This document shows, piece after piece, positions 1,768 through 28,000 of a stretch of 49,312 nt of DNA (its first letter is position 1; every line of letters starts with the position of its first letter). Source of the stretch: Fragilaria crotonensis (lineage: Eukaryota; Bacillariophyta; Fragilariophyceae; Fragilariales; Fragilariaceae); assembly GCA_022925895.1 (NCBI GenBank), contig JAKSYS010000481.1:1-49312 (forward strand), read 5' to 3'. The notes beneath the pieces were generated by a model. The model was not told the origin of the DNA. It saw nothing but the letters and a program-made list of their open reading frames with translations, and searched no databases. The position numbers and the translations under genes were made by a program.

Positions 1768-3322
1768 TCAAGCAACATGTGCATTGGCCATGAGATTAAT
1801 GGCGGCAAGGTTTCCCTGTGGAATGGTGGTCGTATGGGCCACATGGTCTTGTCCGTCGGCGGCAGTGTACACCACCAAACCATTGGCATTGGTGCGAAGA
1901 TTCGGCAATACCTTTTCGACAATTTTTTTCTTGGCCACCTTGTTTTCTGGTTCGGGTTCACCCGTCAGTGTTCCAAATAAGAGGCGTTCACCCGGAATTG
2001 GCAATGTACTAGTAGTAGATGTTGGGCCAACAAATTCCACCTTTTCATGACTGTCATCGGACGCACACAGGACCATGCCATGCGATGGGAATCCAGCAAG
2101 ATTACGACTCTTGAGATTGCAAAGGACGAGTACGTAGCGATCCACAAGGTCCTCCGTTTGATAAAAGGCACGCAATCCTGAAGCAATCTGACGAGGCTTG
2201 TCTTCGCCGACATCGACTTCTTCACAAAAGAGTTTGTCGGATTCTGGATGATGCCATGCCTTGAGAATTTTACCAATCCGAATGTCAAGGGCGGTAATGT
2301 CAATGGCAGGTTCGGGAGTTGCAGTAGGAGCTGTAGGGGCTGCTTTTGGATGCGGCCTTTTTCGCAGCACGCTTGTCAGCAGCAGCCTTTTCTCTTCCTC
2401 CGTCAAGCCGCCACCAGTAGCAGCAGCCGCCGCCGTTGGTGCTGCTACAGTCGCTACCGATGTTGCTGTTGCTGCTTCTGTCCCTTGGTACCCGAAGATG
2501 TCGTCGTGGCGGGTGCTGTCGTGGATGGGAATGATTCTTGTTCGGTTCCATAAAGAAAATGGGCATTGGGATCGTCGTCGTCGTCGTCTTCGTTACAGCA
2601 GCAACAAGTGGTGGCAATTGTTTGGCTCCCAGGTTTGTCATTTGAGCATGAACCGTGGTGATCCATCGTACAATGTTGGGAGTTGTCGTGAAATCCCATC
2701 CATTCGTAGTATTGTTGTTGACCAGACGGAGGAGTGCAACACAAAGATCCATATCGGCCAATGTGGCTTGCGACGAAGGAATCAGGAATGCTCTCGTTTC
2801 CAAATGCTGTTCGAGGTGTTGGAATAGATTTGATTGGAAATTCTCCTCGTCGGCGGCGTTGTTTGCTGTAACATACTTGTCAACATCATGTGCCACCGTC
2901 ATCCAACTTGCCAAGGATGACATGGCAACAACTGACTTTTGAGATCCAGCATTTTGACTGGCAGCACCATGTCCACCCAAGAGAATAAAATCAAGTGCAT
3001 AATGCAAGAATGGTCCTGCCAAGGCTCTCAAAATCGATGCCCGTTGGGTCAAGAGGACACCACTAGAATCACCACCACCACTACTTGTTTCAACATGTTG
3101 TTGTAATGTCAACACATCCTTGTCCTTATTGTTGTTCTTTGGAACAGTTCCCTTCTTTGCATTGGCATTTGACGCCAAAATTCGCTGTTTCACTTGACGA
3201 TCTGATGCTAAATGGAGTACCAATTGCAAGACAACATCTCGTTCCAATACCGATGCAGATGCCGTCAACGTACAAAGCGCAGCGTTTGTCACAATGGCAC
3301 TACTTGTGCTGCCAACTGCCAT
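1768..3322 (-). CDS. Arc1/AIMP1-like tRNA-binding protein (GST-like N-terminus plus EMAPII-type OB fold)
   Basis: A cofactor of aminoacyl-tRNA synthetases expected in the cytosol, where it would dock synthetases and raise their affinity for tRNA. The ATG is at 3322. The N-terminal ~240 residues look like a GST C-terminal helical domain of the Arc1p/AIMP type. A low-complexity Asp/Thr/Ala/Lys linker follows, then TEEEKR. From about residue 350 comes a full tRNA-binding domain: ITALDIRIGKILKAWHHPES, SGLRAFYQTEDLVDR, NLKSRNLAGFPSHGMVLCAS and the C-terminal subdomain ending ANAHVA. The frame changes near 2590 (start of an Asp/Thr repeat) and near 2484 (GGG run). Adding one base at each gives about 518 codons with no internal stop. 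It could instead be the detached C-terminal partner of a Met- or Tyr-tRNA synthetase, but no synthetase catalytic motifs are present. Confidence 0.85.
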
Positions 3323-3783
3323 GGTTTCTGTTGCTGTTGTTGATGTTGTTTATGCTTGGTGTTGTATGATATGTGTGATATCAGGTATAGAATCAATGTG
3401 ACGATAATGACAATGAGGCGGTATGTTGTCGAGTTGTCGAATTGCCAAAGTGTACTGCCGATTGTTGTCAGAAGGAGATACTGTATCATACCCACCTGGT
3501 ACTATGAACTGTGAACATGGCGCACGTATTATACTACAGCACTCGTACAGCATACATGTTTGTGCACTCTACATAATCGCCACAAAGCATCTCATCAATC
3601 ACAAATCCCTTAAAAATCCGTGTACTGAGTACTGTATCCCGTACAAGTACTACTAGTACTCCAGTACAGTACTTTTACACACCGTCTATTCAAACAATTG
3701 TGTGGTCACCGTTCACCTCCACGCGTCATTCGTTGCAGCGGCGTTACAGTGCTGCGATTTTTATTATACTCAGTACTGAGTAC
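3323..3783. other. GTAC-rich intergenic region
   Basis: This is the upstream region of the minus-strand tRNA-binding gene. Between about 3610 and 3680 the tetramer GTAC and the words AGTACT and TACTAGTAC recur many times. The same vocabulary returns in other intergenic stretches of the window. I see no gene. Confidence 0.4.
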
Positions 3784-4016
3784 TACTGTAACTTGAGACT
3801 GCATCTGTACTGGAGTCCGAGTACAGGTACACCGAGTACCATGTTCATGGTCTACTGTCTACCTGGTAGTGGCATGGTAAAGTACCATTTACTAGAGTAC
3901 TACAGTAACTTGAGACTGCATCTGTACTTGAGTCGGGTACCGGTACACCGAGTACCATGTTCATGGTCTACTGTTACTTGGTAGTGGCATGGTAATTTAC
4001 CATTTACTTGTGTCCT
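3784..4016. repeat. Tandem duplication, two units of about 117 bp
   Basis: Unit 1 (about 3784-3900) and unit 2 (about 3901-4016) share long blocks such as AACTTGAGACTGCATCTGTA and the block ending in TGGTAGTGGCATGGTAA, at an offset of 117 bp. Differences are scattered substitutions and small indels. The units are GTAC-rich and non-coding. Confidence 0.85.
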
Positions 4017-4531
4017 CCACCGGAGCGGCGAGCACAACACTTTGAGGAATAGTAGCAGTGAAATTTATTGTGGCATTGAGGGATCTTCTTGCAAGTCACC
4101 AACACTGGTGAATCCACAAACAAAATTTGCTTGCTGCACACTACCAATGCAGCATCACCACTATGATCCTCCTCAGGAAGGAGCAAAATGTGACAAAGTT
4201 TGGTGTACCACCAGCATGCCACTTGAAATATTTCCAAATGAGGATTCACCAGTTCTCACTTGCTGTTGCTGCAAGAGTAAATATGGAAGTGAAAATGAGC
4301 TTGCAGTTTTGCCAAAGTTCAGTGACACCAGCTAGTAGTAGGCAATAATTTTCAGCCAGCAGCAGCAATTCAAACAACCCCAGAAAAGGATCAGCCTCTG
4401 GCTGGCTGCTGGGGACTGTAGAGCGAGACAATGGAAAAATGATAATTTCAACAGCTTATCCTAAGCAGGCAGCATCAGTAGTGGAGCATTGTATTACTTC
4501 TAGCTACTTTTGACCTACTGGCACTTGATAA

Positions 4532-4756
4532 GAGAGTAAAGAAGCAAAGCAGGCATGCTGGTTCTGTGAAGGACAATCATGGTTTGAACATTTTTGTTTC
4601 AACAACAATAACACTTGGCTACAGGCTGTCACACCCCGTGCTGTTTGTGGCATTTGCAATGAGGAAAGATACTGGATCCCTATAAACTGTTGCATCCAAT
4701 GCTCGATTACTAGGGTACGTGGCACATGGCCAGCAGGGATGTCAGTACTCCAATAG
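4532..4756 (+). pseudogene. Cys-rich, zinc-ribbon-like exon or gene fragment
   Basis: An open stretch of 74 codons with no in-frame start at its beginning. It carries paired cysteines spaced like metal ligands: ACWFCEGQ, HFCFN, CGICNEERYW and CCIQCS. The sequence 150-500 bp upstream also has a Cys-rich frame (about 4042-4335, with TCCCCKSKYGSENE). Together they may be exons of one gene or a decayed transposon protein. I do not recognise the family. An AG precedes the stretch at 4530-4533, so it could be a spliced exon. Confidence 0.3.
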
Positions 4757-5744
4757 GAGCAGTAGGCAGTAGCCAGTAGCCTGTAATGAGACTTGGAACT
4801 GAACTATTGCAGTGATGAGAGGTGAAACAGTTGAAGTTACTTCTATGATTGGTGGTCTGTCATGAAGTGCGGAAGAGCACACTCCTACTCTTGACTGTTG
4901 TAATCCTTAACTCTAAAGCCCTAAAACCCTCACCGCCACCGCCTTTTTAAGGTCCAAAAGCTGGCCGGATCGCCTTAATTAACACCCCGGCTCGTGCTCC
5001 TTTCCTTCCAAAAAACGATTCAATCCTGGGTCGCTTACCTGCGACACGTGCCCGCGTGGCACGGACGTGTCGAATGACCTTCGTCAAAACGGGAACATTT
5101 TTTCTATACGAACGACCCTCCGGGAGTCATTTTTGTGCTGTGAGGTCGCTCTTGACGAGGAGGACACTGCCAGATGGCGTCTTTCGATTCTAGTTCGTTA
5201 TAACATATATTCATTCGCAGGGAAAAAAAGGTCATCTTCACAAATCATCAACGCCTATGAATGTCTGAATCTTACCTTGGATGCGGTGTAGAGTGGTACC
5301 TGCCACTATTACAATTATGCCTTGTGACATTCAAATGGCATCAAAGAAATGGGGACATGATAATCGTTTACATAAATGTATTGAATAGAACAGGGGGACA
5401 TTCGGAAACGCGCCTCTGGCAGGTACATTGAACGAGGTAGAAGCTACATCATGAAATCGGATACCACAGTACCGATTCGGTTTTGCAATGACTTGTTCTC
5501 CCTTGCATGTCACGTTGCCAACGCATCGCTTCTGGTACGAAAGACTTTATATAAATGTCTTCCCTTCGGCGACACGTAAATTTATCAAACTTTGGTTTAT
5601 AGTTGATGAAATTGTAAATACAAAATTGCACGCAGTATCGAAGTTCTGATTGATACTGAAGCACCCTATTCGAAGACTTGTTGAACAAGGAGACATTTAT
5701 TTACGAGGACATTGTTTCGGGAAGACATCAATTTCGGGAGACAT
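4757..5744. other. Intergenic region without a recognisable gene
   Basis: I see no supported coding sequence. A 31-nt inverted repeat at 5042-5072 has 8-bp arms CGACACGT/ACGTGTCG and contains a CACGTG box. Its role is unknown. Confidence 0.4.
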
Positions 5745-5990
5745 CTATTGTGTTTGTCCAGCTGTAGAAATGTACTCAACTGGAGGTTGTTTTGAAGTTT
5801 GAGTACCAGACAAATTCATCCGAGCAGCCATAAGAGTGTAGACATTTCGGCCCGCCGTGAAGAGACTTCCTTCTATTGTGTCCGTGCTGTCTTGCTTGTC
5901 GACCAAATTGTCATGTAGATTTTGTACCAGAGACTGCTCATAAGCATTTTGCACGAATTCGCCGGTTGTCGCGTTGGGGTTGATTTTGCA
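5745..5990 (-). CDS. Hypothetical protein fragment
   Basis: An open minus-strand frame of about 81 codons with a balanced composition, containing EQSLVQNLHDNLVDKQDS and GRNVYTLMAARMNLSG and ending in TAG. It is preceded by an in-frame TGA at 5991-5993 and has no convincing ATG, so it would be an exon, a gene 3' end cut by an indel, or chance. I recognise no domain. Confidence 0.25.
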   Translation of the reverse strand, partial: CKINPNATTGEFVQNAYEQSLVQNLHDNLVDKQDSTDTIEGSLFTAGRNVYTLMAARMNLSGTQTSKQPPVEYISTAGQTQ

Positions 5991-6328
5991 TCAAGGTTTT
6001 TTTGTGCAGACCGAGTACACAAATGATGTACTGAACGCTGAGTGCCTGTCGCTATCCTCTCATTTCAGAATTGTTCTGTTTGGTTTGGCAAAAGCTCAAT
6101 CACTCTCTCTTTCCATAGAGATTACACTCCAGTCTTTGCACTCGCACAAAAAGAATCTGGCTTAATCGACGGACAAGTCTTTTGACGACAGTTGTGTTTG
6201 TTTGTGTTGCACATTGCACAGACATTCATAACTTTATCACCTGATCGCCACCAACCCTGATAGAGCTACTCCTCCCATCCACTACTCGCATATAATCATC
6301 ATCACAATCTTCATTCATCCCCGCCATC

Positions 6329-8620
6329 ATGTTTGGTTGGATCAACGATTGTACTGAAAAGCTCGTCATTACCAAATTTGGAATTGACGCATGGCACTCG
6401 ATTAAAGAAAAGGCTGACTGTGCCGTTGTGGATGGTGGATTCGTCCGACACGAGTACTATCCCGATGAGTCCACTGTCAAATTGGTCGTGGCCGCCTCGG
6501 AATTGTTGGGCCTCACTGTCGATCAAGTTCTCGAGGCATTCGGAACATTCTTTATGGAATTCGTTCGAGCCGAAGGATTTGATAACCTATTGCAGTGTCA
6601 GGGCAATACGCTACAAAGTTGGTTGAGCAACATGAATGCACTCCATGATCATTTGCAGTCGAGTTTGCCACCTGGTATGGTCGCACCAGTATTTTGGTGT
6701 GAAAGTGATGATGCAAATGGGGATCCATGATTTTGCATTATTACAGTAAACAGGGTAGCTTGTTGGTGCCACTCGTGGTTGGTGTGGTCAAGGAAGTGGC
6801 TAGGTACCATTTCGATGTTGCTATTGATATGGTCATGCTGACTAAACAAGATGAGGATGGGGCGTCTCATACGAGGTACGTTGCAATTTCAGGAACAATT
6901 TTAACAAAATACGACTTTGAACTCATTTTATTGCCAACCTGCCATCCACCATTTCATTCGGGAATTCGCTTTACTCCCACTCATCAGTTGGACAATCAAG
7001 GCAGCAGATCCCGAGGAAGCTTGGAAAATCACACTCCAAGAGTCGAAGCTTATACCCAAGGCATCGTCATCACAGGCAGAGCCAACTGTCCGTAGGTGCC
7101 CATTCTCTGGGATGACACTCCCATCCCCAGACGTCGCCGTCGACGCTGCAAGGGGGGCTGAAAACGTGGAATCAAAAGATTCGATTCCCGTACAGGTTGC
7201 TGCTTCGTCTGCGTGCCCTGTCGCTGTGAATGATGAAACTAACGTTGACGCGAAGCCAGCCACACCCAAAGAACCATGCATATCAAGTCGCAACATGAAA
7301 AAGATTTTTCCGTACCACATCGTTATCAATGAAACGTTTGATATCATTCAAATCGGAAACTCTCTGCCTCCCCTTATGGGTCAAACTGAAGAAGACCTTC
7401 TGGGCAAGAAGATTGCGGACGTTCTCATCATTTCCAGACCTGTTTTGGGAGCTTGGGAATGGCAGTCGCTCAGGAAACTCGAGGACCAAACTTTCTTCGT
7501 CGATCCAATCGACCAGACTCTGGTACATGTCAAATTCAAGGCCAATACAGTGGTCGTATCAGACCCCGGCGAGGCATATCAAGTCATGTTAGTCCTTTCG
7601 CCAGATGTGAAGAACGTGAAGGAGCTCAGATGCATGAAACTGACAATGTCCGATTTGCCGCTTCATTCCTTTCAACGAGACGCAGTGTTTCTGGGAGAAC
7701 ACATTGCGTCCGAAGTCAAGTCCTCGCTCAAGTTGGATCACTTGTCCAAGAAGCTCCGTCACGAGCAACATCTATCCAAAGTCCTGTTGCATTCCATGCT
7801 CCCCCCGCACGTGGCAAACGAATTGCGAGCGGGCAAACTGGTAGAGCCAGAGCTTCACGAGAATGTGACTCTCTTCTTTTCCGATATTGTGGGCTTTACC
7901 AACATTTGCGAAGACATTTTTCCGTGGGATTGTGTGGACCTTCTCAATCGCCTCTACTGTGTCATGGACTATCTATCCGCCAAATTTGACCTGTACAAGG
8001 TCGAAACCATCGGCGATAGTTACCTCTGTGCGTCCGGATTGCCGAACGCTGATCCGGAACATGCTCGAAAGGTGGCAAATTTTGCAATCGCGTGCATGCA
8101 CTGTTGCCAGCTCGTCATGAATCCGTCGACCGGAGAGCCCATTCAGCTTCGCATCGGCATTCATTCCGGAGCGTGCATGACCGGAGTCGTTGGGATGAAA
8201 ACTCCGCACTACTGTGTATTTGGTGACACGGTCAACACAGCGTCGAGGCACGAGTCGACCAGCGTGGCTGGCAAGATCCAGTGCAGCAGCATCACGTACG
8301 GGCTGCTCAAACACTTTTCTCCCAAGCAAGAATTTGAATTCGTCTCGCGGGGTTTGGTTGACATGAAAGGCAAGGGGTTAATGGCGACGTATTTCCTTGA
8401 ATACGCTACGAATGATAATCCTGATGTCAACCCTGAAGCTTTGGACGTCATTCTGAACGAAGTCGACGAACTATTGCGCGCCCGCAGCTTCAGCAAAAAG
8501 CGTTATTTCAAGCATTACGGCAGACGAGATTCGGAGACATATTTCCGTGGAAGCATTACCGGAAGTAGCACAAGTGACACGTCTCAACCAGACTTGGATG
8601 TGGATGAATTTCTTCAGTGA
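6329..8620 (+). CDS. Haem-sensor (soluble-type) guanylate cyclase: H-NOX, HNOBA, coiled coil, class III cyclase
   Basis: Converts GTP to cGMP, with activity expected to be set by NO or another gas bound to haem. Exons are 6329-6875 and 6988-8620, with a 112-nt GT-AG intron. One base is missing in the G run at 6719-6722; corrected length is 726 aa. H-NOX covers residues 1-183 and keeps the proximal haem ligand as His106 in NALHDHL, aligning with His105 of animal beta1. The haem-propionate motif Y-x-S-x-R reads Y138-x-S140-x-Q142, so the usual Arg is Gln. HNOBA spans about 280-420 and a coiled coil follows. The cyclase domain has both metal Asp residues (FFSDIVGFT, ETIGDSY), the guanine-selecting Glu (KVETIGD) and Cys (HYCVFGD), and the transition-state Asn/Arg (NTASR). 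One chain holds every catalytic residue, so a homodimer could be active. The start ATG has a good context (GCCATCATG). Confidence 0.93.
6876..6987 (+). other. GT-AG intron of the guanylate cyclase gene
   Basis: This 112-nt intron begins GTACGTTG and ends CTCATCAG. Splicing joins AG|T (Ser) and links the H-NOX end (DGASHTS) to WTIKAADPEEAW in frame. Confidence 0.85.
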
Positions 8621-9514
8621 AGCTGGGAGAGGAATTCGATGTTAATTTTTCGTTTATCTAATATTACATGCTGCTTTGGTGAACTAGTAATTCGTGGGCA
8701 TGTGTTAGGTATCATTCACAACTTGCCTGTCCTCTTGCCAATCCCCGTGCTCCCTTTAGTAGGCGGACTCGTATTTACATACATGCAGAACGCAAAAAAA
8801 TGGCTACAAGTACCAAGATTGTTGCATTACTCGTTGGTCGATTTTCCTACCTAAGAACCTGGTTTGGTTGGCATTGTCGCAATGATAGCAGCAACAGCAC
8901 CAAGGCCCGTGAAGCGTGAAGCCAGTAGCCTACCGTCTAGCTAAAATAGAGTCAATGCCAAATAACACAGCTCATCACCGCAATCATGATGAGGTGCGCT
9001 GTCGCGCCTTTTTCTATGAGAAACGAGACCCCACCGCCATGCCCCCTACCCGAACCCAGAAATTTATAGCTATCTTCGATCCGCAAACAAGAATTTTATA
9101 GCTATCTTCGATACGCTTCGAATCCGTCGTTGGTCGGAACATCCGGCAGTGCCAGGGGGGGGAGTTCACAGGTCACAAGTCACAATCAACAGTCGAGCAA
9201 CCACGCAAAGTACGTCGGATTCATGAACGATGACTTCAAGGAGTACAATTCTTATTATTCATTTTATCTGTGTTTAAATAAATTGATTTTCCCATACTCC
9301 GAGTTCTCATGTTTGGGTTCTTTATGAGTACAATTTAATACTCTGGAGTATGCTTGTTTAGAATGTCGGTAAATGATCGTTATTGGCTGCTTGATGTGTG
9401 CTCCAAGTTGATAATTCGACGGAAATATTGCGAAATAACGAATCATTGCTTGATCTTCAATTCATAGTTTTTGCATCAGCTCAAAATTTCGATATAAAGT
9501 GATACGTTCGGGAT
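8621..9514. other. Intergenic region with a small duplicated motif
   Basis: I see no supported gene. The phrase TTTATAGCTATCTTCGAT occurs twice, near 9062 and 9097, about 35 bp apart. Confidence 0.4.
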
Positions 9515-12500
9515 ATGATTATAAAATCCGTGGGCTCCAAGCATACAATGAAGTCACAGTACTCATTGTATGACAACACCGAATACCCATCAAAACCTGG
9601 GCACACGTTTGGCGAGCGGCCTCGCCGTAAATATTTTATTTTTAATTACACTACACCTGCTGAGCACGCATCACGGTCGCTCGTTAGGATCAAAAATCAT
9701 GAGTTTCGTCACGAAAACGTAAGACTCATCGTCATTTCACAAATTGACACCGATGGCAAAATGAATCGATACACAGGTGCACCGCTCGCTGTGCTGAACG
9801 AAGTTTCGGATACCCAGAAGAAGTCGAAAGCGCCCAACGATGCAGATTCTGAAGATACTTTGACCGCGTCTTCCTCTGGTTCCCAGGATGGATGCGATGA
9901 GCAATCAACTTTCGATGAGCAGTTCGTAGCGCAGCCATCATGCGGCGATCGCATCACAATTGAGATCACAGATCCACATGGTCGGTGTGTAGAACTTGTG
10001 AAACAACTGGAGGCGGTCAAGCGAGCCATTGTAGCACCTCTAGAAAACGAGATTGCCAGGATCAAGAACAGTCCTGCCGAAGAACTCGGGTCCCCGGAAG
10101 TCCAAGAACTTGAGACAATTCTCATGCCCACTTTGAGTTTACTGTCAGACCAGGGCAACGAATCATTGGAAGAAGAAAAGGACAATCATGTCAGAGATGA
10201 AAGCGAGGTGTTGCCTGATCCTTTGGTGGACCAATCGCTTCGGCGACACACCGAAAAAGAGTTGCTGGCTATGCGTGAGTCTCTCGAAGTCAGAAAAGAA
10301 TGGAGGGCGTTCTATGCTTATCACCTGGAACGCTTTCGACAGCTGCACGCTGCAGTTGTACTTCAATACCACGACAAGCTTACGGAAGTTGATCAACGAT
10401 GCCGCAACACCGAGGAAGATCTTCGTGTTGCTAATCGTGATTTGGCTCAAATCAGCCAGGTCACTGTCGATAAAACTAAGGAAGTTGTTCGGTTAGAGAA
10501 GGAGAACAAGCGAGTTCATCGAGAGCTGAACACATTCAAACATGAGAGCGCAAAACTGTTGCTCAAGATAGCAAAGGAACATAGGTTGACCAAGGCCAAG
10601 TTGGAGTCAGGTTGGAGGCCGCTTCACAAGAAATTGATTCTTTGGAGGGCGACATCAAGAAGTATGAAGGTTTGAAGAAAGAAAACCGAAGCTCCAAGAG
10701 GCTGAACGCTGTTCTGAACGACAAACTTCGTGTAAAGACGAAGGAAGCCACCGATCTTTTCGCTGAAAATCTGAAGCTGAGAGAGCAAGGCATGCTACTC
10801 CGACGTGATCTGACGAATGCTTCCCAACACATAACATCGCTTACTCAATCCTTAGCGAGTGATCAAGAAGAAAAGGCAGCCTTGTTGGACGAAGTGCAGA
10901 CAGCTAGAAACAGAAGCAGTCTCGAACAAGAAGATTTGCTCCAAGTCAATCATCAACTCAAACTTCGAGTTGACGAAGTGGAGACATTGCTCCAGACCCA
11001 GAACGACGAGTTACAACAGAGGTACTGCGACTTGGAGCTGATGAAAGACGAGATGTCCCAACTTCGTGCTGGAAAGGAGTTCGAACGAGAGGTTAATGAG
11101 GGCCTTTGCGAAACCCTCGAAGGGCGCTGCGAGAGGCTTACGAACAGTGCAAGATCAAGGACGAGGTGTTGTTGGACACCCGTCTATGCCACAATTGGCG
11201 AAACAAGAGCTATCACTGCTTACCGCCGAGTTCGAGTTGGAAAGAGAATGTGCAAATAATCTGATAACTAGTCTTCAGGAACAGCTTTACGAAGCTGACG
11301 TTGTCGGGAAAATGCAGGAGAGTGATTTGGACGAGTCTCAACGAATTCTTTTGCATTTTCTGATGAGGCGGCAGCCTTGAAATCAGATCTCGAATTGGAG
11401 GAGACTGAGTCGCGAAATACAGGAGTCGATTACCCTCAATTGCAAGACGCAGTGGCACGCAACGAAGTCCAAGACGCGCAGATTATGGAATCACAGTCCC
11501 GCAATGACATCCTCGAGGCGGAAAGAGCGAGGCAACATGCAGAAATCGAGGCTCTCAGGGGCAAGCTGCTCAGTTAAGGAAAGATTTAGATTCCCAGCGC
11601 GAGCAATCATCGGTGCTGGTCAACAGACATACTGAGGAGGTGCAGAAGCTACAAGATGCCAATACCTCGCTCCTTGGGCAGCTAGCAGCGATCAAGTCTG
11701 CGTCCGAAGGTGAGAGAGACGCCTCTGTAGAAAATCGAGCCTGAAGATTGAAATTGGTGGACTTCAAATGGACAATCAATTGCTTGAATACGAAATATCT
11801 CAGCTCAAGGCTCACTTGGAAATCGTCATGGAAGAGAACGTCCTCCTCAGTGACAACGCATTTGAAGCTGGTGACTTCGGCGCTCGTGAGCAATCGGAGA
11901 TTGATTTTGGCATGATTATCGCGAGCTTTGATATGGACGATGAAATGGCAATTGTCTCTCCTTGTACAGCAGATGCAGCGCCTCTTTCACATATGATGCG
12001 ATTCGCGTCGCTGTCTCAAGGCGCGATCGATGACAACATTCTGGCGGCGTTTGGCGAACTTGACCAGGCACTTCGCAGCAACGACGCACTTTTGGATCAG
12101 GTTTCAAAAGCTGGACTTACTCCAAAACGGGAACCTCGTGCTAGTCGTATCTCCATCGCTGTCGACGAACTTCGTCTCAAGGAGTCGTCCGTTTCCAAGG
12201 AGGCACCTGCCCCGGATACATTGCTGTCGACAAGATCAGCGGAATACTCAGAAGCGCCTGCACTGAGTTCCACAAATGAACGAGTTCCAGGACCAGGACC
12301 GAACCTCTCATGTGCCTCTGTGTCGCAAATCATCGATTCTGCGACTTTGGTCAACGTGAGTGCGTCCCCAGTCTCAACAGAGGAAGTCACTCTTCGGCAA
12401 TTAGCGGATGTTATCAGCCCCGAACTGCCTCTCAACAAATCAGCGGCGTTGTCCGTGCCTTCAGACGAATACAAATACGTTAGAATCGCGACACCAGATT

Positions 12501-13312
12501 ATGTGGATGGATTGCAAGCATCCTCTGTGACCAAATCAAGCTTGCTATTGGCGGATCATCTCATGGGTGTGCTGGAAGGTAAGGAGGGCAGCGATGACGC
12601 AGTTCTCGAGGAAATGGACAACCTCCGTACATTGTTGTTTGACCTTGAGCACAAAGAGCCACCCTTGGATTTGCCGGCAGACTCTAGCCGTACAGATGAA
12701 TCCACACTAGCAGGTGCCGTGGAAGTCACACTGGATGATTTCATCGCACGCGATCAATGGCATCAACACACCATCGTCATCGATGACACAGTACTGCCTC
12801 TTGTAGAGGACGAATGGTTTGAACGCATGATGCACGATGCCTTGGACTATGACTCTGATTTGAAGGCAGACGACGCGAGCAGAGAGGAATGCCCAGATCT
12901 CACGGACCCACGCCAAGGCGAAGACCGCATTCGAATGGATTTGGGCGAGATCAGTTTCGTCGCTGCTGCTGCTGCGCATCAACGTGAAGGGGAATCGAGG
13001 GAAAATGTTGACACCCATGCTATCGTGGTCACTGAAAACAAGAAACTCTTGGAAGTCTCCATTCTTCCATGTTTCAATAATCCAGACGATTGGAACACTG
13101 GTGCCGTCACCTCAGACACCACGCCAGAGAGCCTGGTTTTGATGCCGAAGGGTGGCAGAGATAACGATGGCGAGAGCACCAAACTCTCGATCGATATCGA
13201 CAAGGAGGACTTTGCCTCGTGTCAATGGCCGACACCCTGTGCGAACGATTCTGGCGATACTCAACCACATCAACTCTGTTGGGAAAATGGGGTAGTTGAT
13301 CACCGTGATTGA
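9515..13312 (+). CDS. Long coiled-coil protein of unknown function, frame-disrupted
   Basis: About 1,260 residues when read through six single-base frame changes (near 10608, 11120, 11190, 11358, 11570 and 11744). None of the joined segments contains a nonsense codon. The N-terminal ~250 residues are polar and low in complexity. From about 10250 to 11880 the sequence is heptad-rich coiled coil, for example RVANRDLAQISQVTVDK and LEGDIKKYEGLKKENRSSKR. The last ~480 residues are acidic and Ser-rich without a recognised fold. An internal ATG at 9761 (MNRYTGAPLAV) is a plausible alternative start, since the first 80 residues look less constrained. Structural roles seen in golgins, kinesin tails or centrosomal proteins would fit, but no motor or other domain is present to decide. 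The C-terminal 99 codons are tandemly duplicated just downstream. Confidence 0.6.
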
Positions 13313-13611
13313 CACTGTATCGTGGTCACTCAACGCAAGAAAGTCTTGGAAGCGTCCCTTCTTCCGTGTTTCGGCATTTCAGACGATTGGAACTCTACTA
13401 CTGCCAACACCGACATGACGTCAGACATCCTGGTTGCTTTGCCAAAGGGTGGCAGAGATCACGCTGTCAAGAGCACCAAACTCTTGATGACTATCGACCA
13501 GGAGGACTTTGCCTTGTGTCAACGACCGACACCCCGTGCAAACGACTCTGGGAGACTCGACCACATCAACTATGTGGGGAAAATGGGTTAGTTGATCACC
13601 GTGGTTAACAT
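13021..13611 (+). repeat. Tandem duplication (297-bp period) of the coiled-coil gene's 3' end
   Basis: Unit 1 (13021-13317) encodes the C-terminus of the coiled-coil protein. Unit 2 (13318-13611) repeats it with divergence: LEVSILPCFNNPDDWN against LEASLLPCFGISDDWN, and LMPKGGRDN against ALPKGGRDH. A degenerate third start follows at about 13597-13670. Unit 2 is in the same frame as unit 1 but lies after the TGA at 13310-13312, and it has its own indel near 13552. Confidence 0.8.
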
Positions 13612-14314
13612 TGTACAGCTACGTAAGAAAACTATAGAAAATCACTTGCAACTGTGTATCATCCTTCAAAGCCTTTCCACGCCCGATCGGCAGTTTGCAA
13701 TGTGTTTTGCACAAGCACTGTAGCATGCAGAAAAATCGGAGTCGCTGGCGATCCATGGTCGCAACAACAGTAGTACCGAGATTACTCCATCATCTTATGA
13801 TATATGTAATGTTCATTCCTTTTTCACGTAACCCCTGCTCCACCGACAACTTCAAGTACTACCGATAGTATGTACTTGTTGTAGTAATGATGATATTCGG
13901 CAAGTTTATATTGCTGTTTTTCTTCCATATTTCATCGCATAGGTCGATGCCTGAGGCCATGAGGAATGAATGCATGCGTCGTTAAACGAACAAGCAGGAC
14001 CAGAAACATCACAGTTATGCACATCATCCTGTGATGCTGCCTGATACTCCGAATAACATCATTCTTGATGGATGATTTCACCAAGCGCCATGACGATATG
14101 GCATGACACTCTATCTGGTGTTTCAATCCCAATCGAAAATCAGCCCTCACACATATATAGATGGACAGCAGACATGGGCGTTTGATGTTGTTTGAGGAGT
14201 TTATGCTGACTACAGAGTAGCTTCTTCTCGTTCACCATATTACCCGTAGATGATAAGCGGAGAACCTAACAATCGATGGGTTTGCACAATCTTCGCGTGG
14301 TTTGCGAACTGGTC
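13612..14314. other. Intergenic region without a recognisable gene
   Basis: It starts with a degenerate third unit of the 297-bp repeat. Beyond that I see no coding signal. Confidence 0.4.
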
Positions 14315-14785
14315 TCATCCTACTGTAACCCACAACAAATAACTATGTTCGGTGTCGACTAATGATTTCGCGTGATCAATAGGTCGTACATTGACGTTCA
14401 ATATAGTACTACTAGAATGGAGAAAAACCGGAAGAGGAAGATGTTCTTCTTGCCATAGTTCCTGTTGTTGTCCTGGAACCTCGTCAAAACTATGGCTCGT
14501 GCCTATTTGATCCCATGAGAAGGCACACGCAGTGTGTGCGTGTGTGAGTTCTCTCGCAACACGAACTAACAAAGTCGTGTATGGGTCAGCATCCTTCGTG
14601 TCGCACAACGAAGGGTGCTCCCACCTCCTCATAGCATTTCGCAGTCTTGAACGGATCGAAATCCGTGGGACTAATGTGACCATCCAGGAATGGACGTCAA
14701 GCACATGATCACTGCCATGGGGCGAGGCGGGGGCTTTTAGTCGTTCGAACTTCTTCACGAAGAAAACTGTGATCAAGCTTCCCAT
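14315..14785 (-). CDS. Hypothetical protein, 156 aa
   Basis: An uninterrupted minus-strand frame from ATG at 14785 to a stop at 14315, beginning MGSLITVFFVKKFERL. Its composition is protein-like, but I find no domain, signal peptide or membrane segment and no homologue I can name. It could be a chance frame, since nothing else in this stretch supports a gene. Confidence 0.25.
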   Translation of the reverse strand: MGSLITVFFVKKFERLKAPASPHGSDHVLDVHSWMVTLVPRISIRSRLRNAMRRWEHPSLCDTKDADPYTTLLVRVARELTHAHTACAFSWDQIGTSHSFDEVPGQQQELWQEEHLPLPVFLHSSSTILNVNVRPIDHAKSLVDTEHSYLLWVTVG

Positions 14786-15210
14786 TCACTTCGTTTCGTT
14801 GCGACAACATGTAATCTTTCTCCGCGGGACAAGCGGACCGTTGTACGTTCAGTCCCACGCGGAGAACGAGTAGTTCTGCTACCATGTACTACTAGTACTA
14901 CAGCTGTACAAGCCGCCACTACCGGTGGTATTTGATAGAGATGTTTCTGTACATCATACATCATACCATCATACCCCACGGAATAAAAACAGATCTTGCC
15001 AAGGCTTATGACTCACGTCTGTAGGTACTGAAGGTATGCCAACACCACGTTTCGATAGATTTTTTGGGTACCGGTACAACTGCTGTAGTATACAGGTGGA
15101 TTGTGTGGACGTTTGGACCAACCTGATGCGATTGCAATTACACCAAGTATACTCTAGTAGAGAGTACCAGGTAGTCCGGTCTATTTGAGCGATGATTCAT
15201 AGATAGAGGA

Positions 15211-18200
15211 TTTTACTTAGTGCTAACCGGTTCACCGAAGTGTCTATCCGGTACTAAAATGCACGATTGATTTCATCTAGGGTTAAGGATTTAATTCGTG
15301 AGTCTCGGTCGGTTTTCAAAACCATGATCCCACAAAAAAGCTCGAACCCGAACACCGTTGCGCTGCAAGACATCTTCACTGCATAAGTGAACTCATTTCT
15401 TCGAGACCGAAATCTACGCACGTCACGCATCTTTTCACATTTGGATACCTTGTGTAAAGTTTAGAAAAAAGAACGCCATGGCCGACGATTTGGAGAAGGG
15501 ACAAGAACCGTCCCCGCCACAGCAGCAGCAGGAGCCTGAGCAGGAGGTGGCGCAGGACCAAGCCAAGCGTCGTCGTACATTTGGCATTGTCATTGCTGTT
15601 TTGATTGCCATTGGGCTTATTGTTGGCCTCTCGGTTGGTCTCACTCGTCCCAGCGGCACTGACTCATCCTCCTCCGCGTCTGTTTCTCAGGGACAAGGTG
15701 ATGGCACCAACAGCACTTCGAACACTTCTGACGAAACTGAAGATGGTACTGCAACAGAGGCAACCACCCGCGTCAAGTTCCAGTCGTCTGGCAGGGCCTT
15801 CAATGTTACCTTGGATCTCCTATCGCCCGACGTTCTCGAAGGATACGATAATGAGGAGGATCTCAGGTCCGATCTTGCCGAGGCAGTGAAGTTTTTCATC
15901 AACGGTTACATCGAGGATCAAATTAAGTACGGCCGCTATGTTTATGTTATGGAAGGTGGTGCAGTAGCAGATGGTGATGATGCGACAGCGGGTGCTGGCC
16001 CATCTGGCGCTGGAGGAAAGGGTGAATCGGCCGCTGGAGCAACAGATTTCGAAACCAACAACCAGGTCGACGGCGTCGATGAGGCTGACATGGTCAAATC
16101 GGACGGTACTTATGTATATGCTGTCTACGGTGATGCAGTAGTGGTTTGGGAAGCTGCCACCGGTGCGTACGTTACCAATTACACTTTGCCGGCCCTTGCA
16201 GAGCCCAATGTCAGAGCCAGAGCATTGCAAGTGGCTACCAATGCTTCCAGCGGTACGGTTGATGGCAACGCTACGGGTGGTGACCCGGGCACTGGTGATT
16301 TCTTCCCGCCATGGATTCCCAAGCCATGGATTACAGGACTGTCGCTCGAGAATGGCAATCTCATCCTCTACGTCGGCGGCTATGGGCCTGAAGTTGTCGC
16401 CGAGAAAAATATCTCGACTGCCTGCTCGTACGATGCGTATGGAACAAGAGTCATGGTCTTCAGCACAACGCCACCGTTGACATTGAAATCGGTTAAAGAC
16501 GTCCACGGGTCGTTCCGAGATGCACGTGCCATTGGAGATGATATCTATCTTGTGACAACCTGTACCTTTGACTTCTACACCATGGTGGATTCGTTGTACA
16601 TCATGAACGACGCGTTTGTCAACATGACGGACGACAATTATAGAACGGCTGCTGCTGCAAAAGGCCGAGCCGCTCGTTGATGGATTTGTGGAGTTGATTG
16701 TCAAGGACATCAACGCCCATGGAACATCCAAGATTCCAAAGATTTCGCTCTGGGGCACTCAGTACGGAAACAACACTGCCGTTGTGGAGCAGGCCAACGC
16801 TGGCGGTGCCATCCAAGCGTACACCAGCTTGATTTCCTTTTCCGTTGCCGACGTGGCCGAAGGAGGCGACATTGAGCTATCTAGTGCAGGTGCGCTTACT
16901 CCATCCAGCTGGGGATACACATACACCATTGACGGGTGGGTTGTTTTTGCAGCCCAGGGATGGGAGTGGAACCGTGATTTGGGAGGAACTAGCCAAAGCA
17001 CCTACTTGTTGGGCTTTAGTATCGACGGAACAACCGCGTCCCCTGCAATCATCGGTTCGTTCCCTGGTTACATCCTCAACCAATACTCTCTCAGCATTTA
17101 CGATGGCTACCTTCGAGTCGCAACTACAATCCAATCCTGGTTTTCGGATGTGGTCGAACCAACTCCCGTTGAATCCAACAGTACCATTGGCAATTCGACT
17201 GGCTCATCAAACGCGACAAGCTCGACGGATGGTGACGTGCCCACGTGGCCTTCGGCTATTTCGATTACTAAGAACCAAGTGATCATCTTGAAGCTTCCTC
17301 TGCGGAAGGCGAAATGATGGAAGAAGTTTCTAGCATCTCCGACCTTGGCAAGGAGGGCGAAAGCATCACGGCTATCAACTACTTTGGACGCATTGCATAC
17401 GCTGGTGAGTTTTACGATTCTGTCGCGTGCTTTGTCGTGCTTGCATTTCCTATGCCACTAACGCTGTTCATCTCTTTCAGTCACCTTCCTCCAAACTGAT
17501 CCGTTCTACGTGCTCGACTTGAACCCATCTGACCCGTCTGTCCTTGGCGAGTTGGTGATCACCGGATTCTCTTCCTACATCCACTCAATCAACGACAACA
17601 ACACCTTGCTGGTCGGAGTCGGGCAGGAAGCCGATGTGAATGGCACAGTCCTTGGACTCAAGATTTCTCTCTTCGACGCGACGAAACCCGCCTCTCCAAA
17701 GGAAATCCAGAGCGCTGCTGTGGAGACTGAGGAAAATTCCTGGTCTTCCACCGATGCCTCGTTCGATTACAAGGCATTCCGCTGGTTGAGTCTCGGTGAT
17801 GGAGTGGGCCTCGTGATTCTTCCGGTCCGCATTGACACTTGGACCCAGACCGGCACTGCATCAACTACCGGAAACTTTGATGGCTTCTACGTGTACAACG
17901 TCTCCCCCGATGGCATCAGCTTGCGATTCAAGATTTCTCACGTCGATTCGGCGGACTTTTACGGGTGCTACTCCGATGCCTATTTGCCCCAGAGAAGTTT
18001 TGTCTTTAACGGAAATGTGACAACACTCAAGGGTCACTCAGTGGTGTCTACGGACCTTGACACTGGCGATCAAGGCTGGAAGTTTGATTTGCCAAAGCCC
18101 GCCAACCCGTATTACTGCGTCGTGTGGTAATTTTCGGTTCCAGGATCAAATGATGGACTCACTTTTATGTTGGATTGAATTGTAGAGAACTTCAGTCGAT

Positions 18201-18270
18201 GCATCAGGAAATACATGTCAAGTTGTCAGCAAACCCAATGAGACTGATTATACACGGACTGCCACAGCTA
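15211..18270 (+). repeat. Segmental duplication, copy 1 (beta-propeller unit)
   Basis: This block matches 24336-27538 in the same orientation, about 9.1 kb away. Homology begins at TTTTACTTAG about 270 bp before the ATG and covers the upstream region, both exons and the 76-nt intron. It ends about 140 bp past the stop (phrases GATGCATCAGGAAATAC and CAGCAAACCCAATGAGACT in both). Confidence 0.9.
15478..18130 (+). CDS. Membrane-anchored beta-propeller-domain protein, copy 1
   Basis: A type II membrane protein with a short polar N-tail, a basic KRRR stop and one membrane helix (about residues 34-56). A large extracytoplasmic part follows, rich in N-glycosylation sequons. The signature NNQVDGVDEADMVKSDG near residue 195 marks the secreted beta-propeller family (Pfam Beta_propel) known in bacteria and archaea and here in a diatom. 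Its ligand is unknown. Exons are 15478-17404 and 17481-18130, with a 76-nt GTGAGT...TTTCAG intron. Two frame changes, in the A run at 16659-16662 and near 17298, are absent from copy 2. Mended length is about 859 aa. They could be assembly errors or could mark this copy as dying. Copy 2 aligns throughout apart from a variable Gly/Met-rich insert and Ser/Thr linkers. Confidence 0.85.
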
Positions 18271-18410
18271 AATGGAACTTATAAGGCCTTTGTGATTACT
18301 TTCCAATGTAGTGACCTTGCTGTCTGATGATCGATCATGAGCATCCTTCGTGAATGTGAGTATAAATGGGGTGGGCGTGTAATGGGTCTTCGAGTAATCC
18401 AGAACATTGG

Positions 18411-18615
18411 AGAGGATCCTACAATATGAGCAAATTCTTGTCATCCTCCCCTGCAACTCATAATTCTACATAACTGTTCCTTGATCAGCTATCTACACTC
18501 CACCTCACATCTTCCGTTTCAACATGTGTCGTCTGATTGCAAACCCGGTGTGGCGACTGCTGCCGTGCTGCCGATTTGCAAAAGTTCATTATGTTGCCGC
18601 CAGATTTCGACTTCG
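18411..18615 (+). pseudogene. Decayed rhodanese-domain gene fragment
   Basis: It resembles 46311-46512, the upstream region and first codons of the third rhodanese gene. Shared phrases include GGATCCTACAAT, ATCTTCCGTTTCAACATG and the region encoding KPGVA-like residues. The reading frame is lost soon after the start. Its place just after beta-propeller copy 1 mirrors the intact rhodanese gene after copy 2. Confidence 0.75.
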
Positions 18616-19350
18616 GGACCTGCCGAGTGACGTCACGTGAATCACGGGCGAAAACCGACTGACGTACGGACGCCATGAGTTCGGATCCAAATCTCACAAG
18701 TTCTCAGTCCATTGCCTAAGAATTCTAGACTCTCCTATTGCATATCATCAATTGCATGATTTGATGTACTTATGCTGAACATTATGTAGTTCATCAGACC
18801 CAGTTTGCCTTCCTGTATCAAATGTTGACTTGTGAATGCATGGCAGCAGAACTGTTGCAAAGATCATTCCCAAGCCTGCAAGGTTACCGACGCCGACGGG
18901 CGTTTCGGGTTGACAGCATTTAGCATATGCTTATTTTGAGCCACCACGAGGCAGTCCTTGACATGCTCAGACTTCAGATTCCGGGCGACAATAAGTCAGA
19001 CATCAACTCGCATTTGTGTACTGAGGGCCAATGACTGGTCATAAGTGATTGTTATCGTGACACGCAACGACTCGTCTTTTTCCAGCAATTGTGCTTTTGT
19101 CAGGAGTCAAGAAGTCAGCCAACACCGGAGTTAAAACTCCATAATTGAGGGCTGCCTCTGAAAAGTTTGGCATGGATTCTGAATCCCTTGCAATGTTCAA
19201 CAAAGCACTTGCAAGCTACACATCCATCATCTGGATGTGACAAGCCCTAGTAAATCGCTGCTCTCATCTGCAGTATCGTTGCCAATGACAAAGCTTAGCA
19301 GGAACTTGCATGTGCACAGGGACAGTGTTGATGGCATATGAAATGCCTTC
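18616..19350. other. Intergenic region without a recognisable gene
   Basis: I see no open frame or RNA gene that I can support. It adjoins the decayed minus-strand gene and may belong to the same old insertion. Confidence 0.35.
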
Positions 19351-20520
19351 TTAGGGTGCAGACACAACATAGTTGTCATGAAAAGTCTTCAATGTAGGTT
19401 GTGCCACCTGCTTCATCCGCCTGTTCCCTTTCAGATGTTTATGGTGGGGGGTTGACAACATGTCGGGGAATCGAACGGAGGTAGTTGAGAAAGTGGATTT
19501 CCAGTCTTGGCAACACTTAGTGGATTCCTTGGATACGTTTGGCTTTGCCGCCTCTGACAAGGTCTTGGAGTCAATCAAGGTCTTATTGTCGTGGGTCTTG
19601 GAACAATGAATGAGATCACTAACAAGTCCGACAAGGAAAGGTGTTGCATCCACGTCTTCACCATGATGCAACTCATTACGTGTTCTGGGTCCCAGGACGG
19701 ACACAGATCTGGTCAAGTGTCAGATCAGAGTTTGTTTTCTTGAAGTATTCATCCAGTTCCTTGGAGGTGACATTCAGACATGAGGTGAATTGGTCACCAA
19801 AAAATCTGCAGCAAGTCGTTGTGCCTGTGTTCTGTCCATGAATTTTTATCATGGTGGTCGATGCCACAGCCGACCAGAGAGTCAACAATGGTAACCCCTA
19901 ACCGTCAAATACCATCATTTCAGCTATCCTTGTGATACCCTCCTCTTGTTCAATCGATAGATTTTTCAAGTTGAACACTGTATTTGTGACCAAATTCACT
20001 ACACCGCCCCGCTGCCAACATTACAATGCACATGTTCAATGTTTTTGTGGAACAAGGATCAACGTTGAATCAGATGAAGGTTGACCGTAGTTGTGAGAGA
20101 CAATTTTCTGATCAAACATTCACACTTATCATCTGGTTGATGGACAGAAACCAGAATCCAACATTGTCAATATTCTGGCGCGCACGCAAACTGTTCCATG
20201 TTGTCTGCAGATGCACATCATGATGATGATTGCCATTGCAAAAAGATGATCGTTTCAGAACATCCACATTGCAATGTTGAGCGTTCAAACGCCCTAAGAT
20301 CTTTGACAGGCGCTCGTTGTCTCAAGTGGATGAGCGCTGTCGTGGTCACTGGCTCTGTCACTGTGACCACTACTACTATCATGTTAAGGGTAGCACCCAC
20401 TAAGGTGAGTCCATATTTCGGCTCTTTGATGGAAACAACTGGATGGACATTATGTTTGTCTGCCAGCTTCGAGTTGGGCTTTAGAACTACTTAACGTGCA
20501 CTTGTCAATCACCAACAAGA
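19351..20520 (-). pseudogene. Decayed protein gene of unknown family (possible transposon protein)
   Basis: Several minus-strand segments read as protein but in shifting frames. One at about 20500-20220 contains KLADKHNVHPVVSIKEPKY. Others at about 19888-19676 contain CCRFFGDQFTSCLNVTSKEL and NSDLTLDQICVRPG. The last, at about 19716-19351, contains HHGEDVDATPFLVGLVSDLI and SKESTKCCQDWKSTFSTT and ends at a stop. The last two join in frame after one indel near 19680. I do not recognise the family. The segment at 22484-22786 seems to be an upstream part of the same gene, separated by the RNase H insertion. Confidence 0.5.
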
Positions 20521-20812
20521 ACACAGCAGGTATCAAAGCATTGCATGCAGCAACTAGCCAGGACCAAAGACAACAAGCAAGGAGATCGCGGCTGATACCC
20601 TACTACTAATATGAAGGGCTTCATTGGGAACACTGTTGGCAGAGGACCATTGCAAACTGCAACCTCAAAGAAAACCAGAGGTCATCTGCTACAATCAGTA
20701 GTAGATAGTAGGCAATGCAAGCAACGTTGTGACGCCTACAAATGGTGAGAACACGATTGCTATCAATGATGCCTTAAATTTTTCGGAGGCATGGGATAAG
20801 GCCAGCAGCTTC

Positions 20813-20870
20813 AGCTTTGAACTGCAATGCTTCACTTCTTACCTTCCCACAAAGAAAATGAGATGACGGG
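20813..20870. repeat. 58-bp direct repeat, left copy
   Basis: Begins AGCTTTGAACTGCAATGC and ends GAGATGACGGG. It is repeated at 22458-22515 with one mismatch. The two copies bracket the RNase H fragment exactly, as a very long target-site duplication would. Confidence 0.9.
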
Positions 20871-22457
20871 CAGGAGAACGAATCGCCACTGGTAATGGTC
20901 CATCAAGAGGAGCAACAGTTAACTCGCATAGAGCCGAATGTAGCGGAATGCTCGCGATACTCAGGTTCTTGATCCGGTTGGCAGAATACACAGGTATGGT
21001 TGGCATATGGGTCGGACGAATTGGGACCGATAGCCAGAGTCTACTCGATCGAGTGTTTCACAAGCACAGCGACAATTGTTATCCAAAAGTATACAGCTCG
21101 ACGTCTCTAAAAGCATTGGATATGTTCGATCTGGAATGGGATCTGTTGAATGAAATTTTAATTACATTGAAATGTCTTCCTGAAGTTACTTTAGAATACG
21201 TTAAGGGACACCAGGATGACCAAGTGGAGTATTCAAGATTACCGTTGATGGCTCAATTCAATGTTAATGCAGATGGACTAGTGACACTCTATCAGCAAGA
21301 GTTTGGATGTATTCGCCCTCAAGTCCTTATGTCAACAAACGCAGGAATTCACTGCATAACGGAACTGGGTACAGTGACGAGCAAATTGGTACCATCGGTG
21401 CGATATCTTTTCTACGGGTCCTTCACTTCGAACCGATCCCAATATGCGAAGTATTAATTGGAAGGTGCATGCAAAGTTTTTGAAAGACAACATTTCTCGG
21501 CGGACACACTTCTTAAAAATGGTTCATGAATGTTTACCAAGTAATAGTATGAGAAATCGGTTTGATTCGGGTAGGCGCCAATGCCCATTATGCCCCTGGG
21601 AACATGACGCACAAGATCAAATATTGAGATGCTCAAATGAGTCAAGAGCGGAGTGGAGGGATAATTTCATGCGCCGACTCGAGGCGTTTCATGCACAAGA
21701 GAATACGTGCCCGTTTCTTTGGCATTTGTTGAAAGAGGCATTGTCTCAGTGGTTTAGCCAGGATGCTGAACGTGACATTATGGTCTCTCCGATATTATTC
21801 CCGATCTATGTTCGGGAGGTAATCCTGCAACAGAATGCGATCGGATGGCGACAATTATTTAATGTCCGGTTTGGACGCAAGTAGAGTCGGGTGCAAAATG
21901 AACACTATGATTGCAGAGAGGATGCGAGACGAAGTGCCAGGCAGATGCATACAGGTGACGAGTGGTTGCTGAAACTCACATAATTGATAGGTGATAGTTG
22001 GCTGGACTTATGGCGACAACGGAATGCAGACATTCACGGCCACAATAGTCAGACACAGGCAGAAGCATAGCGTCGCGAGGTTTCTAGGCAGCTGGAAGAG
22101 ATAAATCGGCAGCGGCTGCAGTCTAAACCTCGAGTGCTGCGGTTAATTCTCCCCGACGTTCAAGAGCACCTTTTCCGACCTACTTGTTGGGTGACGCGAA
22201 ATTGGTTGGCAACGAGCGAATGCAGGGATTTTCCGTGAGAGTAGGAGGAGGGCTAGTAAGGATCGCGCATTACAAGGGGTGCAAACTCTACATGCTTTTT
22301 TTTCGTCGAGACGATAGTTCCCCGAACGCGAGTGATTATTTACTTGACAGTACTCACACAAGCAAGGGTACTGTTTAGTCGTGTGCGTCGATCCTTCCGG
22401 TCAGTGAGGATAGCGGCAGCACGTTGAACGATTTTAAGTTTTTTATGCTTCAAATTT
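20871..22457 (+). mobile_element. Truncated retroelement fragment: RNase H plus zf-RVT-like domain
   Basis: The fragment starts inside an RNase H domain (open from 20879: ATGNGPSRGATVNS, TDSQSLLDRV, YVKGHQDDQVEYSRLP). After a frame change near 21445 it continues with INWKVHAKFLKDN and a Cys/His motif, CPLCPWEHDAQDQILRC, typical of the zf-RVT region after reverse transcriptase in non-LTR elements. A stop at 21882 and further decayed coding (WLDLWRQRNADIHGHN, in a shifted frame) extend to about 22378. The reverse-transcriptase domain itself is missing, so this is a 5'-truncated copy. It ends in an AT-rich tail without a clear poly(A). Confidence 0.75.
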
Positions 22458-22515
22458 AGCTTTGAACTGCAATGCTTCACTTCTTACCTTCCCATAAAGA
22501 AAATGAGATGACGGG
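22458..22515. repeat. 58-bp direct repeat, right copy
   Basis: Matches 20813-20870 except for T instead of C at 22495. On the minus strand it contains GGAAGGTAAGAAG, which resembles a splice donor, in line with its having been part of a minus-strand gene. Confidence 0.9.
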
Positions 22516-22786
22516 ATATGGCGATAAAGATGGTGAGTAGCAAATAGCTTACGACTTCTTCTTCTAGGACGACATGCATTCGGAGTTCTTCCATTGTTTG
22601 ACTAGCTACTATGACCTCCGAGTACTTGAGGTAGCAATCTGTGAGCACCAAGTATTTATCAGTTGTCATTGTCTGATTTCCATTGTTACAAGATCTTTCA
22701 TTGCACAGAAACATTTCAACAAGCAATGTACTTGTAGCAACTGCTGGTACATTTGCACTTGCAACTGTGCTTTGAAAGACCTTCAA
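22484..22786 (-). pseudogene. Upstream part of the decayed minus-strand gene
   Basis: A 100-codon minus-strand frame containing TTDKYLVLTDCYLKYSEVIV and ending inside the right 58-bp repeat. Reading through the repeat into its twin at 20870 leads back to the decayed gene at 20520-19351. This fits one ancestral gene split by the RNase H insertion. Family unknown. Confidence 0.35.
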
Positions 22787-23366
22787 GGCAGAATCATGAA
22801 AGTTGAGGAATGCCCAGTATTGGTTGATGTGGAAAAATCCCCACTAGAAAGCAAAGGCTAGAGATTGTCTGACACTTCCTTCAGGTGCACCTTTCAAAAT
22901 TGAAGATGACAAGGCATCATCAACAGCACCCAGAAGTCTTGCTTGAATGCTCAAACTGTTCTTGTTATTATTGCAATTAATTCCTTCAAGCTAGGCAATG
23001 GTTTGGCCCAGCTGTTGACTTGCAATCACATTTGAGTGGATCAAAGCAACAAGGCATTTGTCAACAAGTCCTTGTCTTCATTGCTGCTGCTGTTGCTACA
23101 AGTATTCCTACTACTAGAATCCAATGAGACTATCGATCATCAAGAATCTCATCCATGAGCAAAAAGCATGTTGTTGCCTCGTGAGGCAATGGCGCTCCAG
23201 AAATTACGTCCGTCGTCTTGTCATGTCGACGTTGTCACACGATTAGTGATATGATTGAAGGTCAAATCGGAGCCATAAAACAATATTTGGCATAGTACTA
23301 CTAAATCACGATCTTCGATCTTCTGATCCTTCCGTGCGCAGTGCGCAGTACAAATTCGGAATCTTA
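22787..23366. other. Intergenic region without a recognisable gene
   Basis: Probably more of the decayed minus-strand unit. No frame or RNA is supported. It ends at the TTA target duplication of the MITE. Confidence 0.35.
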
Positions 23367-24147: not shown

Positions 24148-24335
24148 TTACCTGACAATCATAAAGTCGCTTAGGAATCTTTGTTTTGTTTTTGTTTCAT
24201 TTTGCCCTGCTATGGGCTTCGTACTTCGTATGACATATAGTAGACTATTTCTACTCGCAGCACGATGTGAATGATATACCGATATACGCATATAGACGAC
24301 ATAGCCTAGCACCCTGTCAACTGTCAACTCTCCCA

Positions 24336-27538: not shown

Positions 27539-28000
27539 CTTAATTGAGCTAAAATGTTCTTTTGCTTAGGTCACTGTATCTGATCGATTAAAGCATCGGA
27601 TTCATGATGATTACGGTATACTGTCGCATCATACTTCAGTAGGGATCACTGCTTACTGCTTAGCGAAGCAGCCGGCCCGAGGCCCGAGTAATAATCGGGC
27701 ACCAGGTTCTATACTTGGAACACTCTCTCTCCAGTTTCCACTTAACTCGAGTAGTCGGAGTACTCTAGGACTGGTAGTACGAGTATGCGGATACACTAGT
27801 ACTGGAGTACCAGGTTCTTGGAGTACGGGTACGTATTGCAATCAAGCCCAAAAAGAGGATTCTACCGTACTCATTGTTTATCCTTTATCCTATCCCCCGC
27901 GTACTTTGACGTTCTTTCTGCAAGAATCTTTCCCTCGGTTGCTGTTGGTGCTCGATCTCCCACTTCTACTCCATCACACTCACATTCTTTTCGATTCAAC
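27539..28000. other. GTAC-rich intergenic region upstream of rhodanese gene 1
   Basis: Between about 27740 and 27840 the words AGTAC, GTACT and TACTAG are dense (for example ACACTAGTACTGGAGTACC). The AGTAC words are absent from the 60 bp just before the ATG. Confidence 0.4.

Follow-up and report, generated by a model that had tools for sequence, protein, structure and literature searches.

A soluble guanylate cyclase-type gene in the diatom Fragilaria crotonensis whose haem-propionate motif differs between two assembled copies

Does this locus encode a diatom guanylate cyclase of the soluble (sGC) type whose haem-propionate motif, Y-x-S-x-R, has been changed to Y-x-S-x-Q, or does the change belong to one assembled copy of the gene? 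The question arises from an earlier note, made from the letters of the window alone (by the window we mean the whole stretch of 49,312 nucleotides analysed here), which described one gene joining an H-NOX domain, an HNOBA domain and a complete cyclase domain, and which proposed on the strength of the Gln that the protein might hold haem more weakly or answer to a different gas or redox cue. Taken as a whole, the data are quite probably best explained by an ordinary single-chain diatom sGC with the canonical motif, assembled as two haplotypes, with a consensus error having broken the frame of the copy in the window.

The gene in the window and its second copy

The gene is a real member of the sGC type (H-NOX, HNOBA and class III cyclase) with one inferred intron. 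Pfam matches to HNOB, HNOBA and Guanylate_cyc follow one another in that order within 6335-8401 of the window, and to this extent the earlier description stands; what it left out is that the frame is broken and that an intron has to be inferred (Table 1). The ATG at 6329 opens a frame of 133 residues, which stops just upstream of the haem motif; the letters of the motif belong to another frame, which is open from 6727 onward. The HNOB match is split in the same way, with 6335-6718 in the start-codon frame and the remainder in the frame from 6727, where the second fragment scores 20.2 bits, below the cut-off of 25.5. A third open stretch, past the inferred intron, holds HNOBA and Guanylate_cyc and reaches 8620. 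As assembled, the window does not hold the gene intact: its frame shifts by one base at 6719/6720. The proximal His, which had been said to be kept, is indeed in place; an excerpt of PMC8196705 gives it as the haem ligand. Elsewhere in the window, at 47702-49312, an ankyrin-repeat frame runs off the window end.

Table 1. Positions of the features of the cyclase gene in the window
Feature	Position	Strand	Remarks
Exon 1 (H-NOX domain)	6329..6875	+	Lacks 1 base relative to C59; frame broken
Proximal (haem-ligating) His codon	6644..6646	+	Residue 106 in the C59 copy; aligned to LHDH in sGC beta-1 of human and moth
Frame break (window and C59 differ by one base in length)	6719..6720	+	Pairwise alignments
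TGA ending the start-codon frame	6728..6730	+	After 133 residues
Y-Y-S-K-Q at the Y-x-S-x-R motif	6739..6753	+	Last codon (6751-6753): CAG here, CGG in C59
Inferred intron, GT..AG	6876..6987	+	112 bases here, 115 in C59; inspection and homology
Exon 2: linker, HNOBA, cyclase, C-terminal tail	6988..8620	+	Open to the stop
HNOBA	7280..7825	+	Pfam; two matched stretches, 7280-7504 and 7574-7825
Guanylate_cyc catalytic domain	7844..8401	+	Pfam
Cyclase Asp codons	7883-7885, 8015-8017	+	Alignment
Cyclase Glu codon	8003-8005	+	Alignment
Cyclase Cys codon	8213-8215	+	Alignment
Cyclase Asn codon	8234-8236	+	Alignment
Cyclase Arg codon	8246-8248	+	Alignment

Our Pfam searches covered the whole assembly (62.1 Mb in 881 contigs), in which the window lies on contig C426. 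HNOB and HNOBA matches occurred at two loci only, the window and a locus on contig C59, and a DNA search of the assembly with exon 1 likewise gave C426 and C59 as its sole matches, with no third copy of the gene. The window is collinear from end to end with 60 kb of C59; the alignment falls into four main blocks (97.3, 97.9, 98.1 and 99.2% identical), which are separated by insertions on either contig. The largest insertion, of about 15 kb (window 29692-45039), is missing from C59 except for one match of 165 bases; two of the four frames tested within it match the RVT_2 reverse transcriptase (32173-35544, minus strand, and 42750-44201, plus strand).

Once spliced, the C59 copy gives an uninterrupted protein of 726 amino acids, in which HNOB (133.4 bits), HNOBA (96.8 bits) and Guanylate_cyc (205.9 bits) each exceed the Pfam cut-off and the haem motif is the canonical Y-Y-S-K-R. 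Of the seven coding SNPs that separate the two copies, five are synonymous; those that change an amino acid (C59/window) are Arg142/Gln and Gly269/Val, the latter falling between domains. The two copies are most likely the two haplotypes of one diploid locus, to which a recent duplication is formally an alternative.

The frame break and the Gln codon

How far the window can be believed at the break depends on the quality of its consensus. Window and C59 show 74 one-base length differences, the window being the shorter at 36 and the longer at 38, and these are very unevenly spread. Losses and gains in the window number 6 and 1 at 1-1999, 3 and 0 at 2000-4099, 21 and 3 at 4100-11600 (the stretch that contains the gene), 3 and 3 at 11601-23300, 0 and 28 at 23301-27900, and 3 and 3 beyond. 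All 28 one-base indels of 23301-27900 are thus losses in C59, and that stretch has only 2 SNPs. The two-sided binomial values, 2.8e-4 for 4100-11600 and 7.5e-9 for 23301-27900, are descriptive only, the borders having been drawn after the list was viewed. Within 4100-11600, 18 of the 24 one-base indels sit in runs of at least two equal bases.

A gene with a Beta_propel domain occurs twice in the window, at 15210-18279 and 24335-27550, the two being about 83% alike. At 12 sites of 23301-27900 a comparison could be made with a related copy in the window, 83% identical; it agrees with the window, which has the longer form, at 10 of them, though two of those 10 look misaligned, and the other 2 oppose a reading as errors. 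Open frames also differ between the contigs. A minus-strand frame at 2300, with the same start on both, is cut at 340 amino acids in the window and runs to 520 in C59, and the region of C59 that corresponds to the 718-amino-acid window frame at 24607 is without any frame above 188 amino acids. The window frame of 400 amino acids at 15478 (673 in C59) lies outside both one-sided stretches, and there the window has an extra base, at 16658; the gene around 9515-13312 is interrupted in the window and C59 alike. The indel pattern is as expected of an unevenly corrected consensus. Because the one-sided losses point to such uneven correction, a consensus or assembly error in a poorly corrected stretch is, to us, the likeliest origin of the break at 6719. 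Frames in window 4100-11600 and 23301-27900 are not to be trusted from a single copy.

One can also envision a genuinely broken, pseudogene-like allele in the window, with the Gln as a passenger change on a haplotype without selection on the gene. The break and the sole amino acid change within a conserved domain do occur on one and the same copy, at a distance of 33 bases, and the difference at 6719, unlike those 18 indels of its stretch, is not a plain change in homopolymer length. We nevertheless think such an allele unlikely, given that 21 of the 24 one-base indels around it are window losses, that the mirror pattern in the other stretch suggests that the assembly has errors of this kind, and that the copy otherwise looks conserved, with five of its seven coding SNPs synonymous. 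A bypass of the break, whether by programmed frameshifting or by splicing of an extra intron, would account for homology on both sides in two frames, and in a scan of the GT-AG pairs lying across the break, 77 of 234 would indeed restore an open frame. However, the C59 copy requires neither device. None of the 77 has its acceptor before 6746, so that all of them would delete the motif tyrosines (6739-6744), and 70 extend to 6752 or past it, into the Gln codon; if an extra intron were used, there would therefore be no Y-x-S-x-Q in the protein. No slippery heptamer of the form X XXY YYZ was found at 6641-6728 in any frame. We rejected the extra intron for the loss of the tyrosines and for the unbroken frame of C59, and programmed frameshifting for the want of a heptamer and because C59 has no need of it; a bypass of either sort is barely credible.

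This leaves the Gln itself, a one-copy difference 33 bases downstream of what is most likely an error. The motif Arg is present in the aligned human and moth sGC beta-1 chains and in six of the seven bacterial loci found, the seventh match stopping short of the motif. The Arg and Gln codons differ by a transition at a CpG, where genuine mutations of this type are frequent. Whether a heterozygous SNP or an error, the Gln does not define the gene on the sequences compared. We consider a true heterozygous SNP at least as likely as a substitution error, and favor it because the worst stretch of C59 holds 28 indels against 2 SNPs.

A further step would be to regard the Gln as a real and functional heterozygous variant on an allele that is otherwise intact, giving two sensors of different haem affinity. 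SNPs do separate the copies in this gene, the scarcity of substitutions where C59 is badly corrected (2 SNPs, 28 indels) speaks for a real change, and so does its being a CpG transition; but Arg is found in the other copy and in every examined relative whose match covers the motif, and the window copy as assembled is unable to make the protein. We regard a functional variant as improbable. Little credence, too, can be given to the picture that would go with it, of a strain heterozygous for a canonical haplotype and an intact Gln haplotype with weaker or redox-shifted haem, in which mixed dimers tune the response to NO. It would require both that the frame break is an assembly error and that the Gln is real and expressed.

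An altered haem motif as a property of this gene is therefore not supported by the sequences. The letters of Y-x-S-x-Q are there, as reported, but they are off the start-codon frame; the C59 copy has Arg, and the copy with Gln is broken 33 bases upstream, so that the weaker haem binding or different gas once proposed for the gene loses its footing. The underlying chemistry, in which the Arg pairs with a haem propionate, was sound. Y-x-S-x-R is described as stabilizing the haem propionates, and as missing from the moth alpha chain, in the sections available of PMC8196705, and in an excerpt of PMC3212528 a T110A mutant is said to resemble an earlier R139 mutant in its apo form and its response to porphyrin.

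Catalysis, gas sensing and known relatives

The claim that one chain carries all the catalytic residues, Glu and Cys included, is borne out by alignment (Asp482, Glu522, Asp526, Cys592, Asn599 and Arg603 in C59 numbering). E522 and C592, which form the guanine-specifying and not the adenine set, align with both sGC beta-1 and alpha-1; D482 and D526 align with the Asp residues of alpha-1, beta-1 having Gly at D482; and N599 and R603 align with the Asn and Arg of beta-1. We take D482/D526 to be the metal-binding Asp residues, N599/R603 the active-site or transition-state pair and E522/C592 the residues of guanine recognition. On these assignments, the single chain has a complete catalytic set. 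HNOBA accompanies only those of the 24 cyclase matches in the assembly that lie at the window and C59 loci, and an HNOBA search of the assembly for a partner chain of the alpha type gave only the two copies of this locus, although gaps or weak matches may hide others. It seems likely that the protein acts as a homodimer, as had been suggested, since one chain has the full catalytic set and no other HNOBA locus was found.

Compared with sGC beta-1 (human 6jt0_B and Manduca sexta 6pas_B), the diatom chain has the same domain order, proximal His, Glu/Cys and Asn/Arg, and the C59 copy has the same Y-x-S-x-R. Beta-1 has Gly for the first metal Asp and pairs with an alpha chain, whereas the diatom chain has both Asp residues; it also has a longer linker and a C-terminal tail.

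Which gas the protein might sense can be approached through the distal haem position. In the alignment this is a non-polar residue, Leu149, in the C59 copy, where human beta-1 has Ile and the bacterial relatives have Met (five of six) or Phe (one of six). Tyr at this position marks O2 binders. The residue points with low certainty to an NO-type rather than an O2-type protein, the certainty being low because the atypical animal enzymes bind O2 without a distal Tyr. Cys124 stands at the position of human beta-1 Cys122 and Val79 at that of Cys78, which are presumably the two cysteines of interest for NO sensitivity. Two cysteines are tied to NO sensitivity in the available portion of PMC1435932.

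We imagine that a gas, most likely NO, would bind to haem held by His106 and the canonical Y-x-S-x-R in the H-NOX domain, and that the signal would be relayed via HNOBA and the connecting helix to the class III cyclase domain. Two identical chains, which can form two sites because each has the metal-binding and transition-state residues, would then make cGMP at two active sites.

Our own comparison with Chlamydomonas was with PDB entry 3et6_A alone, which we take to be CYG12. Both CYG12 and CYG11 are H-NOX cyclases of an alga in which, as in the diatom protein, a single chain carries the whole catalytic set. Excerpts of the published work describe the CYG12 catalytic domain as a dimer in the crystal (PMC2576301) and CYG11 as active as a homodimer (PMC8728061). 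Unlike the diatom protein, as excerpts of the same two papers have it, CYG11 has two H-NOX domains and responds to CO, and CYG12 has 991 residues with an extra C-terminal domain (PMC2576301, PMC8728061). Among the atypical animal sGCs, Drosophila Gyc-88E and Manduca MsGC-beta3 are single-chain active homodimers that respond weakly to NO or are insensitive to it, the fly ones being O2 sensors, according to parts of PMC1435932.

At the level of annotation, this kind of gene is already known in diatoms. An extract of PMC5485032 lists a "Soluble guanylate cyclase 88E" of Pseudo-nitzschia multistriata (PSNMU-V1.4_AUG-EV-PASAV3_0051110.1) as 6.3-fold up in both mating types during sex. That gene takes its name from the same animal family, and its likeness to the present one is at the level of annotation. 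No characterized diatom H-NOX cyclase was among the literature matches listed, only this annotation; many of those matches were to the word "diatomic."

Genome context and implications

The assembly has 19 silicon transporter matches, 18 of them above the cut-off, and one of 14 control genomes was matched, below the cut-off; this set is consistent with, and supports, a diatom origin. A single match to NO synthase falls in a frame that runs for 1483 residues from its ATG (L010 905-5356, minus strand; C210:51404-55855), with oxygenase, flavodoxin and FAD/NAD parts and an N-terminal region of about 500 residues without a Pfam match. The best solved relative is an NO synthase of 1468 residues, perhaps the globin-fused cyanobacterial type; its match to the frame begins at residue 284, well ahead of the oxygenase domain, which lies at 521. 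No globin domain was found in the frame by Pfam up to E = 10. NO synthases have been reported in diatoms, according to a passage of PMC4648414. PDEase_I gave 12 matches and cNMP_binding 31, counted per exon and per assembled copy, and cNMP_binding is a common domain, matched also in 10 of the 14 control genomes.

The altered haem motif falls away as a lead and ought not to be quoted as a trait of diatoms. A caution also follows for the use of this genome: both copies of the locus are retained in the assembly, some stretches of which seem to be unevenly corrected, so that any residue change or frame break found in a single copy needs comparison with the other. With an NO synthase, an H-NOX cyclase, phosphodiesterases and cyclic-nucleotide-binding domains in one genome, a diatom route from NO to cGMP becomes testable.
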